A stretch of DNA of 26,051 nucleotides from positions 1 to 26,051 of the IMG/VR virus record IMGVR_UViG_3300020474_000091. One strand, 5' to 3'. Made by a program: the position numbers and the translations under genes. The stretch is from a virus. Below, piece by piece: positions 2,670-6,935 of the stretch; the stretch's first letter is position 1; every line of letters begins with the position of its first letter. The notes beneath the pieces are model-generated. The model did no database searches and had not been told where the DNA came from. It saw only the letters and a list, made by a program, of their open reading frames with translations.

Positions 2670-2840
2670 TTAACGCTCGTAGATATACTCGATATTATCA
2701 TGGTAGCACGTAAAATCCTTTCCGTCAATAGACCTCATAAAAAGTTCAGAAGCGTTACCACCAATAATTTTAGCGGTTCGGACGTGGGTCCCTCGTAGTA
2801 ATACGATACGACCCATCATTCCTTTAACGTGACTAAGCAT
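2670..2840 (-). CDS. Small basic conserved protein (56 aa), function unknown
   Basis: Read from the DNA: ATG at 2840 opens a frame of 56 codons beginning MLSHVKGMMGRIVLLRGTHV and ending IEYIYER, stop TAA at 2670-2672. The ATG lies within the last codons of the CobS-like gene (8-nt overlap). AGGAGG at 2850-2855 stands 9 nt upstream, which favours this start over the ATG pair at 2816-2819. The stop abuts the ATG of the next gene. The composition suggests a small beta-rich fold (VLLRGTHVRTAKIIGG, LFMRSIDGKDF), but no family is identified. It fills an otherwise unexplained 163-nt gap between two real genes in a tightly packed genome. Confidence 0.7.
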   Translation of the reverse strand: MLSHVKGMMGRIVLLRGTHVRTAKIIGGNASELFMRSIDGKDFTCYHDNIEYIYER

Positions 2841-3927
2841 CTACAGACTCCTCCTTATCTAAGTCAACTCCTGCATCAATCTTATCATACAATTCAATGA
2901 AGGATTGCTTAGTCTCATCATCAAATCTATTGACGCAAACCTTGATTGACTTCATACGGTCATTCCAGATAGCGTATGCTCTCATGATGTGTACAAGTCT
3001 ACGTGTACTGATGACTTCATCAATACCACCGTCTTTGAATGTTCTACGGATAATGTCTGCCCAGTTAGCAAGATTTTCACAGAACTCTTTGTCTTTCTTA
3101 CCAACAGTAGAGGCAACTTTCTCAAGAATCTTTTGCTCTGTCTTAGGAGTAGGATACTCTTGCTCGAATGTTAAAGCAAATCTCTCAAGGAATGCTTCGT
3201 TCAATACATTAGTACCGATGAATCTACCATCGTCGCTACCTTTACCTTTAGTATTTGCAGTAGCAATTATATTGAATCCTGGAGCAGGTTGTACGTACCT
3301 ACCAATCTTCTTAAGGAATATACCTTTACCTTCAAGAATAGATTGTAAACATAAGATTTTGTTTGATGCTAGGTCAACCTCATCTAAAAGGAGGATAGCT
3401 CCCCTCTCAAGAGCTTCGACCACAGGTCCATTGTGCCAAACAGTTTCGCCATTAACAAGGCGGAAACCACCAATAAGATCATCTTCGTCGGTTTCAATGG
3501 TAATGTTTACACGTATTAGTTCTCTATTTAGAGTTGCGCATGCCTGTTCAACGGAGAATGTTTTACCGTTTCCAGATAAACCAGTGATGAATGTAGGGTA
3601 GAAGATTTTGGATTGAAGTATCTTCTTTACATCAGTGAAGTTACCGAAAGGAACATAGTTCGCATCTTTATCAGGAACTAAGTTTTGCTGAATAGCAGGG
3701 ATAGCAGCAGGTGCTTGATAAGTCTGTTCAAGTTTTTCTTGAATAGTTAGATTCCACTTACCAATACCTTGTTTGTATTTTTTAAGTCTTTTCTTTACTG
3801 TAGCAAGAGAACAGTTGAAGTGCTCAGATGCCTCAAATAAAGCTTTTGTGTTTACCTCAGTACCGACCTTATCAGAAAGGTATGTAACTAAGTCTTCGGT
3901 TGTAACGGGAACGGGTTCAAAAGGCAT
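2833..3927 (-). CDS. cobS: CobS-like AAA+ ATPase (MoxR/cobaltochelatase small-subunit type)
   Basis: 364 residues. The N-terminal ~60 residues include a possible helix-turn-helix (LFEASEHFNCSLATVKKRLK). The AAA+ core follows: Walker A GLSGNGKT at 116-123, Walker B ILLLDEVD at 178-185, sensor 1 within IIATANTKGKGSDDGRF, the second-region LNEAFLERF with an arginine at 249, and sensor 2 ISTRRLV near 306-312. This layout matches CobS, the ATPase of aerobic cobaltochelatase, and the cyanophage gene usually named cobS. It lies directly downstream of the CobT-like VWA gene, mirroring the CobS/CobT and MoxR/VWA pairing seen in bacteria. No CobN-like chelatase subunit is present here. It may help a host CobN insert cobalt into a corrin ring, or it may be a general AAA+/VWA remodelling machine. 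The ATPase call is firm, the cobalamin role is inference from family. Confidence 0.88.
   Translation of the reverse strand: MPFEPVPVTTEDLVTYLSDKVGTEVNTKALFEASEHFNCSLATVKKRLKKYKQGIGKWNLTIQEKLEQTYQAPAAIPAIQQNLVPDKDANYVPFGNFTDVKKILQSKIFYPTFITGLSGNGKTFSVEQACATLNRELIRVNITIETDEDDLIGGFRLVNGETVWHNGPVVEALERGAILLLDEVDLASNKILCLQSILEGKGIFLKKIGRYVQPAPGFNIIATANTKGKGSDDGRFIGTNVLNEAFLERFALTFEQEYPTPKTEQKILEKVASTVGKKDKEFCENLANWADIIRRTFKDGGIDEVISTRRLVHIMRAYAIWNDRMKSIKVCVNRFDDETKQSFIELYDKIDAGVDLDKEESVDA
2850..2855 (-). promoter_or_regulatory. Strong ribosome binding site for the 56-residue gene
   Basis: AGGAGG on the minus strand, 9 nt before the ATG at 2840, located within the 3' end of the CobS-like coding region. 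It indicates coupled translation and decides the longer start. Confidence 0.6.
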
Positions 3928-3941
3928 GGGTCTTGTTTTGT

Positions 3942-3971
3942 TTTGTATGAATTAAGTATAGAATAGAATGG
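3942..3971 (-). promoter_or_regulatory. Possible sigma70-like promoter for the CobS-like gene
   Basis: On the minus strand TATACT lies about 25 nt upstream of the start region, with TCGCCA 17 nt before it, a weak -35 that falls inside the hairpin stem and loop. The -10 is good and the -35 poor, so this is only tentative. Confidence 0.25.
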
Positions 3972-3987
3972 GGTCGTTGGCGACCCC
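3970..3987 (-). terminator. GC-rich hairpin between CobT-like and CobS-like genes
   Basis: Perfect 7-bp stem GGGGTCG/CGACCCC with a 4-nt loop, followed on the minus strand by ATTCTATTCTATACTT. The tail is only moderately U-rich, so it may be a weak or partial terminator, an RNA-stabilising 3' end, or a processing site between the two genes. Confidence 0.5.
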
Positions 3988-3993
3988 TTGTGT

Positions 3994-4011
3994 ACCAGTT
4001 TGTGAACTGGT
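3994..4011 (-). terminator. Second hairpin immediately after the CobT-like stop
   Basis: Perfect 7-bp stem ACCAGTT/AACTGGT with a 4-nt loop, starting at the stop codon. No U-run follows. Together with the next hairpin it forms a tandem stem-loop pair in the 83-nt gap between the two genes. Confidence 0.4.
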
Positions 4012-6254
4012 TATGCAACATACTCTACAAATGAACTGAGAAGTTTTTTGTTGGTAGATTTGTTACCTAACATCTTCTTGAATGCTCTAGAGATCTCTCC
4101 CTTCTTAGCACCTGCTTCAACATTAAATTCAGTATCTGTAGTTAAAGAATTGTTAGAGATAGCATAGAGAGCATTGTATCCTTTAGGGTTAGGGATGATT
4201 GCAGACTTCTCTTTTCTCCATTGTTTCTGGACTTTAGGATAGTCATCCCAGTCTGCAAATCTACCAACAAACTGCTGAAGAGAACCACCTGCAAGAATAC
4301 GAAATCCGATAACATTAACACTAGGATTACGATCACGAACCTGCTGAATAAAAATGTTAGTAGCATTATCATAATCAAATCCAGAATACATGCGACCAGT
4401 TGTACGATCACGAAGGACTTGATTCCAATCAACACGACGTGCAACAATCTTACTATCTTCATCTTCTCTTTGAATCTCTTGACCATATGCACTAGCACAT
4501 GCATCACCATCAGATAGAATGCATACATTTACTTTCTGTAAATCATTCTCACTTTTGAACTGAGGGATGATGTAATTTAACATTACGATTGCTTCATTCA
4601 AAGGAGTACCAGATAGACCAACACCGAATGTATTTGGATATCCAGTGTGGAATCTGTAAGTAGATGCCTCACGGAAAAGATTTCTGCACTGCATATCATA
4701 CTCACGAGCGTTAGAACGAGATGAAACAAAATTCATTAAGTGAAAGTGATTTGGGTCAAGATAGATCTCATTCTTTTTAATATCTTCATGACGTTCAGTA
4801 TAGTAACTATAGTTGAAGTGAAGTTCTTCCTGTTTAGAAGTATCATTTTCCATTGCTCTCTTAGCAGCATACCACTCATTAGTAAAGGCATATACTTCAA
4901 ATGGAATTTGAACTTTCTTACAGAATGCAGTAAGATTTAAAACTTGTTTAACTGTAGCAAGTAATTCATTCGCCATGGAACCAGACCAATCAAGAATGAA
5001 AAGTAAACCATGATTCTTACCGTCAGGAAGAACAGTTACTTTTTTGAAAAGATCTTCGTTGTATCTGTAAGTGTGTAACTTTGCAGTATCAAGAACACCA
5101 GTTTTAGATTGACCAGAACGAGCATATGCATCAGCAGATTTCTTACACTCAAACTCTTTAACAAGATAGTTTACTTCTTTCTGAGATTGTTTTTTGAAAT
5201 TGCGGAAGTTATTATCTACTTCTTCATATCTTTCAGCAGATACTGCCTGCTCAGTAATCCAATCGTGAAGTACTTTCCAATCAACTATGTGATTATCTAC
5301 GTTAACTTTCTCAGGAATCTCAACATAAACTGGATCTCTTTTTTGACGTGTAGATAACTCTTCTGTTGATTCATCAAAAGAACGTTGAGTTCTAGATGTC
5401 TCTCCACCTTCTCCACCAGAACCATCATCATCCATAAGGTTACCATCCTCATCATACCAATCATCAGTAACATCTTCTAAGTCAACACCTGATGATTTGA
5501 ACTGTCCTGATGCAGATGCACCACCGCCACCACCTACTTGAGCAGTAGGATTTGGTTGATCTTCTTCACTAGACTCTTCTGAATCATTGCCTGCTGATTC
5601 TATAGATTGTCCACTAGCAGCACCCTCAGGTTGAATCTCATCAGGGTCAACTGATACTGGAATCTCCATAACAGATTCTTGTTGTGCTTTACTGAATTCA
5701 AAAACGTCAGTAGCAATCTGTATAACTTCTTCAAAAGTTTCAGCAAGGTCAGTACGAGCAACAAATAATTTCTCTTCAATAGAGAATGGAATCATTGCAC
5801 TAGCACCAATCTTGAAGTGAAGATTGATACGGTCAATCAAACTGAAATCAGATATATCTTCATTCTCAACACCAAAGAAATCTCTACTATTTAATTCTTG
5901 ATAACCACCATTAAAAGACTTGCGAAGACCTGGAAACTTACGCTTCATAAGTTTCTCAATACGAGCATCTTCGATAACATTGATATAATCCTTAGGGCAA
6001 TTCTCTAGAGAATAAATCCAGTCTTCGTTAGGAGTGAATAGAGCATGTCCTACCTCATGACCTACGAGCATATCGTATACAGTTCCAGAAGCATTGTCCC
6101 ACATAGGAAGAGTCAAGACACGACGATCTACATCAAAGGATGCTGTAGGGGTTTGCCTGTGCTCAACGATAAGATTCTCTGTAGCGAGGAGACGAGCAAG
6201 ATTGCCTTTGATTTCTGGTTGATTTGTATGCATGACTCTTTGTGTGTTATGCAT
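4011..6254 (-). CDS. cobT: CobT-like protein: HExxH metalloprotease-like domain plus VWA domain
   Basis: 747 residues. Near the N-terminus LVGHEVGHALF (HExxH at 66-70) is followed by INVIEDARIEKLMKRKFPG, where a glutamate at 95 or 100 could be the third metal ligand; the latter segment also resembles the CobT family. A long acidic, glycine- and serine-rich linker (about 204-283) leads to a VWA domain with a complete MIDAS: DWSGSM at 422-427, T550 in LSGTPL and D582 in ILSDGDA. This matches the CobT-like protein of T4-like cyanophages annotated as a peptidase or cobalamin gene. With the AAA+ ATPase just downstream it should form an ATPase/VWA complex. An alternative start is the ATG at 6233 (MHTNQPEIKG). 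The domains are clear. Proteolytic activity and the cobalamin link are unproven. Confidence 0.88.
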   Translation of the reverse strand: MHNTQRVMHTNQPEIKGNLARLLATENLIVEHRQTPTASFDVDRRVLTLPMWDNASGTVYDMLVGHEVGHALFTPNEDWIYSLENCPKDYINVIEDARIEKLMKRKFPGLRKSFNGGYQELNSRDFFGVENEDISDFSLIDRINLHFKIGASAMIPFSIEEKLFVARTDLAETFEEVIQIATDVFEFSKAQQESVMEIPVSVDPDEIQPEGAASGQSIESAGNDSEESSEEDQPNPTAQVGGGGGASASGQFKSSGVDLEDVTDDWYDEDGNLMDDDGSGGEGGETSRTQRSFDESTEELSTRQKRDPVYVEIPEKVNVDNHIVDWKVLHDWITEQAVSAERYEEVDNNFRNFKKQSQKEVNYLVKEFECKKSADAYARSGQSKTGVLDTAKLHTYRYNEDLFKKVTVLPDGKNHGLLFILDWSGSMANELLATVKQVLNLTAFCKKVQIPFEVYAFTNEWYAAKRAMENDTSKQEELHFNYSYYTERHEDIKKNEIYLDPNHFHLMNFVSSRSNAREYDMQCRNLFREASTYRFHTGYPNTFGVGLSGTPLNEAIVMLNYIIPQFKSENDLQKVNVCILSDGDACASAYGQEIQREDEDSKIVARRVDWNQVLRDRTTGRMYSGFDYDNATNIFIQQVRDRNPSVNVIGFRILAGGSLQQFVGRFADWDDYPKVQKQWRKEKSAIIPNPKGYNALYAISNNSLTTDTEFNVEAGAKKGEISRAFKKMLGNKSTNKKLLSSFVEYVA

Positions 6255-6302: not shown

Positions 6303-6935
6303 CTAAAGTGTCACATTGCCTGCTAAACTAATTCTAGGTTTATCAGTTGAATAATATGGATGCACTCCATGGTAGATCCTTGCGGGGAATAGTATCATAC
6401 GTCCATTATCTCGATAGTCAATCTCAATATTTTGACAATATGTATGTCCAGAATGTGACGGATGGATAAAATAAAAACATCCTGGGTATGGTTGATTGGA
6501 AGATGCGACTCTATAATCTTTTCTTTCTTCCTCTAAAGAGTATGGTATATCATGAAAAATAACCCAACTGTATATACCCTGATGATTATGTGGTGGATTG
6601 TACATATACTTTTCAGTCACGTTAACCCACATAGTATCTAAACTAAGAGAATCAAAATTATACTTCGGTCTAATAATTTTTTCAACCTCATGTTCATACT
6701 CATCAGTTTGTTCTTTATGAGTATCCTTATAAGTCTTTACTAGTTCTGAAATTATAGGACCTAGAAGTGGTGTTGCCTCAGGCAATAACCAGTTGTCTGT
6801 TTGTATACCAGATAAGTTTGTCTTCTTTGTTCTATCAGCAGACCAGATTAATTTATCTAATGTCTCTCTAGTTCCTGTTGGTAATGTTGTATGTACATAC
6901 CCTGATGAGAAAAAGGGAGAGAAATTAATATTCAT
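6303..6935 (-). CDS. 2OG-Fe(II) oxygenase-like protein
   Basis: 210 residues. The C-terminal half carries NPPHNHQGIYSWVIF (H116 and H118), then FPARIYHGVHPYYSTDKPR (H189 and R201) and ISLAGN. This is the arrangement of the putative 2OG-Fe(II) oxygenase family common in marine cyanophages (PF13759 type): the N-terminal histidine motif and distal histidine bind iron, and the arginine binds 2-oxoglutarate. The substrate is unknown; tail or structural protein hydroxylation and DNA repair have both been proposed for such phage enzymes. The start overlaps the gp46 stop by 11 nt. There is no clear ribosome binding site, so translation may depend on coupling. Confidence 0.75.
   Translation of the reverse strand: MNINFSPFFSSGYVHTTLPTGTRETLDKLIWSADRTKKTNLSGIQTDNWLLPEATPLLGPIISELVKTYKDTHKEQTDEYEHEVEKIIRPKYNFDSLSLDTMWVNVTEKYMYNPPHNHQGIYSWVIFHDIPYSLEEERKDYRVASSNQPYPGCFYFIHPSHSGHTYCQNIEIDYRDNGRMILFPARIYHGVHPYYSTDKPRISLAGNVTL

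Follow-up and report, generated by a model that had tools for sequence, protein, structure and literature searches.

A CobS-type AAA+ ATPase and its HExxH-bearing VWA partner in a T4-like cyanophage: probably a protein-processing or remodelling machine rather than a vitamin B12 enzyme

The DNA analysed here (the window) is a viral stretch of 26,051 nucleotides (IMG/VR record IMGVR_UViG_3300020474_000091, positions 1 to 26,051), which its open reading frames (ORFs) identify as a fragment of a T4-like cyanophage, with gp44, gp45, gp46, gp47, gp55, UvsW and head and tail genes in the order known from annotated relatives. Between the gp46 and gp45 regions, the minus strand, on which both genes and their parts lie, carries the gene for a 747-amino acid (aa) protein with an N-terminal zincin-like domain and a C-terminal von Willebrand factor A (VWA) domain (4011 to 6254; PHROG 459 'peptidase'; cyanophage T4-GC 146), followed by the gene for a 364-aa CobS/MoxR-type AAA+ ATPase (2833 to 3927; PHROG 249; PF07728, E 6e-20). 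A previous sequence-only reading had placed both ORFs here and had recognized an HEVGH motif, an EDARIE motif and a full metal ion-dependent adhesion site (MIDAS) in the larger protein, all of which were found. Its statement that the two genes are directly adjacent holds for their order on the coding strand, but a gap of 83 nucleotides with a terminator-like hairpin (GGGGTCGCCAACGACCCC, 3970 to 3987, identified by consensus match alone) lies between them. Two inverted repeats occur in 3970-4024, this hairpin and a second one (CCAGTTCACAAACTGG) that reaches into the end of the VWA gene. Transcription of the AAA+ gene may start separately; a look for transcript timing in P-HM2 gave no result.

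The existence of the pair was already known. The same genes, in the same order and with the same neighbours, make up the cyanomyovirus system of PHROG 459/T4-GC 146 (S-PM2_119) and CobS (T4-GC 150), from which the window shows no essential difference and of which it is one more member. The combination of an HExxH motif with a VWA/AAA+ pair is not peculiar to this phage: the VWA gene is a cyanophage core gene long annotated 'peptidase', and the combination also occurs in other phages, on plasmids and in Chloroflexota. S-PM2_119 has been described as a conserved cyanophage gene whose function is not known (PMC2984593), and cobS as a cyanophage core gene (PMC3037559). The VWA protein of the window matches PHROG 459 over its full length (profile E 2.7e-268, residues 11-747), and tblastn gave hits in 463 phage records, cyanomyoviruses with few exceptions, of which 450 cover at least 80% of its length; among the matches listed the label is mostly 'peptidase', otherwise 'midasin', 'ribosome assembly protein' or hypothetical. 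It had no Pfam match at E up to 1, none in NCBIfam or PADLOC, and none when used directly in sequence searches of the PDB.

The HEVGH motif (residues 66-70; 6045 to 6059) is by itself weak evidence, an HExxH arising in 2.3% of shuffles of the protein. The site is not a product of chance, because each of the 94 non-redundant homologues has H66, E67, H70, E95, D96, R98 and E100, and also the MIDAS residues (D422, S424, S426, T550 and D582), down to 33% identity and with many of them at 33-45% identity. The combination that marks gluzincins, an HExxH with a conserved downstream glutamate, is present in every one of them. When distant T4-like and two Chloroflexota sequences were added, H66, E67, H70, E95, D96 and R98 stayed invariant and E100 became variable, so that E95, the first residue of EDARIE (residues 95-100; 5955 to 5972), is the likely third zinc ligand alongside the predicted ligands H66 and H70, with E67 as the predicted general base.

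Structure prediction is consistent with this assignment. The full-length model (predicted local distance difference test, pLDDT, 82.8; predicted template modelling score, pTM, 0.79) comprises an N-terminal domain (here residues 17-196), a disordered acidic, glycine-rich linker that joins both domains (residues 201-283; 5406 to 5654; pLDDT <50), a long helix (residues 340-379), a VWA fold (residues 403-650; 4305 to 5048) and a C-terminal helix. Modelled alone with AlphaFold2 (pLDDT 90.2, pTM 0.86), the N-terminal domain (residues 12-198; 5661 to 6221) has the predicted element order of a minigluzincin, three short strands, the HExxH helix (residues 57-73) and then the glutamate helix (residues 88-106), which supplies in E95 the candidate for the third ligand that the sequence-only reading had proposed to look for downstream of HEVGH. 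Its best Foldseek matches in the PDB are almost all zincins (selecase, probability 0.98; abylysin, 0.91; jannalysin, 0.85; and ArdC), with IrrE/PprI, M61 and Wss1 at lower ranks; among viral models it significantly matches 'CobT' and 'VWFA' proteins of phages and haloarchaeal viruses, with SprT, IrrE and M48 below. For the full model, the PDB search ranked first the VWA domain of NorD, as found in NorQD complexes (E 3.3e-6), and the MIDAS domains of Rea1 and MDN1 are in the top nine; the matched entries include 9qh6_G (E 3.3e-6), 9qhe_G, 9qhg_G and 6qt8. The models thus suggest an N-terminal domain resembling minigluzincins and a VWA domain resembling those of NorD and midasin, which dock on AAA+ rings. 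The MIDAS motif DWSGSM occupies residues 422-427 (4974 to 4991), with T550 at 4605-4607 and D582 at 4509-4511, and an insertion within the VWA domain (residues ~461-545; 4620 to 4874) is, from its position and the NorD precedent (PMC13036017), a candidate finger for the AAA+ pore.

The AAA+ protein has Walker A GLSGNGKT (3559 to 3582), Walker B LLLDE (in GAILLLDEVD, 3373 to 3402), sensor 1 ATANTKGKG (in IIATANTKGKG, 3238 to 3270), an arginine finger in FLERF (region NEAFLERF, 3178 to 3201) and sensor 2 STRR. These catalytic motifs are practically invariant across 119 sequences, in agreement with the earlier description of the Walker and sensor motifs as intact. Sequence comparison places the protein in the midasin/CobS/NorQ (MoxR) clade, with an AAA_5 domain and intact catalytic residues; its PDB relatives are midasin (best, E 5e-50), CobS (9ujv, E 3e-24) and NorQ. 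Midasin (Rea1/MDN1) is thus alike in both halves of the system, as the top-scoring relative of the ATPase and through its MIDAS domain, which ranks among the top matches of the VWA. It is a single giant eukaryotic chain in which several AAA+ modules are joined to a MIDAS domain, and we know of no zincin domain in it.

Cyanophage cobS is often cited as an 'auxiliary metabolic gene' for vitamin B12. The published alternative is that the pair forms a cobaltochelatase motor which works with the CobN of the host and increases cobalamin for those enzymes of the host that depend on B12; in this view of Liu et al. (2021, PMC8651126), the 'peptidase' is a CobT that was 'mistakenly annotated as a peptidase'. 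We consider this unlikely. The AAA+ protein does match the CobS model TIGR01650 (E 1.8e-21) as well as the CobS structure, but its 76.7 bits are far under the curated cut-off of 558.6 bits, and the VWA protein has no match to the CobT families PF06213 or PF11775 at E up to 1. Cobaltochelatase CobS/CobT resembles the phage pair in combining an AAA+ protein with a partner made of an N-terminal domain, an acidic linker and a VWA domain; CobT differs in lacking HExxH, in retaining the glutamate of EDxRIE (as EQARVE) and in working with CobN. An HExxH is absent from all 24 alphaproteobacterial CobT proteins examined, as the sequence-only reading had supposed for cellular CobT, whereas cyanophages keep it.

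By profile comparison, 'CobT-like' and 'HExxH metallopeptidase' do not exclude each other. Direct hhalign of the VWA protein with CobT is weak (E 0.007-0.019). A bridge set of seven VWA proteins adjoining CobS-like ATPases in unrelated phages aligns with the cyanophage family in the N-terminal domain (E 2.6e-10, 169 columns) and the VWA domain (E 1.2e-6), and with CobT in the same two regions (E 4.5e-7, 115 columns, and E 1e-43, respectively); reversed and mismatched controls gave E 0.06-0.63. In the bridge alignment HEVAH stands opposite AYALR (CobT L177) and EDVFIE opposite EQARVE. By these profile alignments CobT is a distant homologue of the phage protein in both the N-terminal and VWA domains, via the bridging phages only. 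HExxH is kept in five of the seven bridge proteins and lost in those of phages ANB28 (REVST) and nickie (SEISK), never in the cyanophage set. The expectation that the key residues are kept across homologues, for which loss had been named as the refuting test, thus stood for the 94 members of the cyanophage family and failed for these two phages. The simplest reading is that CobT looks like one of several members with an eroded zinc site; a FastTree of the N-terminal domain, which is short, gave an unrooted tree with mostly weak support and was left out of dating the loss. The mis-annotation claim of Liu et al. (2021) would accordingly be half right on sequence grounds, the cyanophage protein being a CobT homologue, yet one bearing a peptidase-type site that is absent from CobT.

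A chelatase role further requires CobN, and here the evidence differs between hosts. No CobN (PF02514) was found in 15 phage genomes, including eight whole genomes of relatives of the window, as the sequence-only reading had noted for the window itself. Among 61 marine Synechococcus/Prochlorococcus relatives (Cyanobiaceae), 59 have CobN/ChlH family proteins, mostly in two copies, and none has CobT, so a partner for viral CobS and CobT would be available there. The pair is also present in E. coli, one of the control genomes, in which the CobN family had no match, and on other CobN-free elements. Because E. coli phage-plasmids carry the pair and the E. coli control has no CobN match, a CobN-dependent role cannot be family-wide; hijacking of host CobN by a viral 'cobST' is possible in cyanobacteria and cannot be general. 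This favours the earlier suggestion that the pair is not, or not only, a cobalamin enzyme.

The pairing itself is widely conserved. Of 148 loci with enough flanking sequence, 140 have the AAA+ gene downstream of the VWA gene; among the eight exceptions it is upstream in L160, L163 and L170 and on the opposite strand in L155. Ten of 121 Chloroflexota genomes gave matches, all of those with a complete N-terminal domain bearing HExxH, and the HExxH-VWA gene has an AAA+ gene next to it in L170 and L171 and in 4/4 further Chloroflexota loci. The adjacency of AAA+ and MIDAS-VWA genes that typifies MoxR/VWA co-chaperone systems is found in these loci. In E. coli the pair occurs in 219 of 5426 complete genomes, always on plasmids (phage-plasmids, e.g. 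L201:3374-6813); these members are labelled 'cobaltochelatase CobT-related protein' despite the absence of a CobN-family match in E. coli. HExxH-VWA genes also occur on an IncC plasmid (HEAAH) and an Acinetobacter plasmid (HEVAH). The IncC plasmid, pIMP-PH114 (L231:5001-6797, L233:7038-8006), has its HExxH-VWA gene (HEAAH, LEDCRIE) behind ssb-bet-exo and DUF3150, and its nearest annotated AAA+ gene is non-adjacent, ~5 kb upstream. A tblastn search with the protein of the E. coli K-12 phage PhiR41_1 returned 1774 plasmid records, about half of them predicted conjugative.

Neighbours of the pair in cyanophages are gp44, gp45, gp46, gp47 and gp55, which include the clamp and clamp loader; dnaE lies near the pair or the VWA gene in SSU5-like, Rhizobium, Pseudomonas (nickie) and Acinetobacter elements, and the T5S1 neighbours are a DNA polymerase and a primase. 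In the window, a 210-aa ORF (6303 to 6935) adjoining the pair has the sequence appearance of a 2-oxoglutarate-Fe(II) oxygenase. Gene organization varies elsewhere: Pseudoalteromonas phage vB_Psh_XG4 (L058:5917-8156) has separate ORFs for the VWA part, then the HExxH/zincin part, then the AAA+ protein, the last itself in two ORFs separated by extra sequence, and Synechococcus phage S-SKS1 (L064) has an unannotated 'peptidase' ORF and an equally unannotated two-ORF CobS-like gene, possibly an AAA+ frameshift. Within bacterial assemblies, phage-genome-sized contigs of Nonlabens xiamenensis (L154, 188 kb) and a Prochlorococcus single cell (L149, 189 kb) carry the cyanophage-type pair, and the flavobacterial AAA+ protein of the former is 73% identical to that of the window. 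Staphylococcus phage phiSA039 and Microbacterium phage Pumpernickel were rejected, their AAA+ matches having no VWA or HExxH in the neighbouring ORFs checked.

Our data suggest, with moderate confidence, that the two proteins form a remodelling machine of the MoxR/CobS AAA+-VWA type, with an N-terminal gluzincin-type zinc domain in the VWA partner; it is probably a protein-processing or remodelling machine rather than a B12 enzyme. The mechanism we envisage is modelled on NorQ/NorD, in which the VWA finger inserts into the ATPase pore and for which twisting and stretching of a linker have been proposed (PMC13036017). NorQ/NorD is alike in joining a MoxR-type ring to a protein with an N-terminal domain, a long linker and a VWA domain, that of NorD being the top PDB fold match, and unlike in its low sequence identity (~10%). 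By analogy, an AAA+ hexamer would grip the VWA domain through the insertion in its pore, and each ATP cycle would turn or pull that domain. The MIDAS would hold a target protein and the long acidic linker would pass the pull on to the N-terminal domain, where H66, H70 and E95 would hold a zinc ion and E67 would activate water, so that the remodelled target is cut. The target would plausibly be a phage protein of DNA replication, recombination or late transcription, and the CobT of cobaltochelatase would be a distant member with an eroded zinc site. Several points weigh against this proposal: the Foldseek E-values of the N-terminal domain in the PDB are weak (best 0.096); the loss of HExxH in ANB28 and nickie indicates from their sequences that catalysis is dispensable in some lineages; and the neighbours, although repeatedly DNA replication or recombination genes, are a weak guide to function.

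The same likeness to NorD, the closest PDB match of the VWA domain, would also suit a metal-insertion chaperone in which the HExxH/E site binds metal without cutting and the machine loads it into a target enzyme, as NorQD inserts iron into nitric oxide reductase by a twisting mechanism (PMC13036017). We regard this as quite unlikely, since E67, whose role lies in hydrolysis and not in metal binding, shows the same invariance as the ligands. T4-like phages process their virion proteins, which would fit a virion assembly or maturation machine. Iyer et al. (2021, PMC7824862) proposed such a role in jumbo phages, where a MoxR-vWA pair has a metallopeptidase at the N terminus; the precedent they name is the MoxR-vWA pair that Acidianus two-tailed virus needs for its tail. 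The pair of jumbo phage Atu_ph07 (ASV44729/ASV44728) is alike in idea, with a MoxR ATPase and a vWA partner bearing a metallopeptidase-like N-terminal domain, but its motif is HQILH, and it was rejected as a family member as comparison gave no detectable homology to the cyanophage family. Moreover, the core virion proteins named by proteomics are T4-GC 15 and 190 only, not GC 146 or 150 (PMC3037559), and the family has replication genes as neighbours and extends to conjugative plasmids and Chloroflexota, which makes a virion role improbable. That the zinc-like site is a non-catalytic structural or regulatory remnant, as its disappearance from ANB28, nickie and CobT while the remainder of the protein persists might imply, is highly improbable, since a site that stays strictly invariant while its family diverges points to selection for catalysis.

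Beyond the proposed remodelling machine, we tentatively raise the possibility of an unrecognized and widespread family of ATP-driven zinc metalloproteases serving the replication or recombination of phages, phage-plasmids and conjugative plasmids, from which CobT would derive by loss of the zinc site; most 'CobT/porphyrin biosynthesis' labels on mobile elements would then be wrong. The evolutionary link suggests that the N-terminal domain of CobT may be a retired protease domain, and the members on E. coli phage-plasmids make the question testable in E. coli, which shows no CobN. The partner of cobS is present in essentially every marine cyanomyovirus, and if it is an active metalloprotease and not a CobT, the interpretation of a core gene in abundant ocean viruses as serving B12 would need revising.

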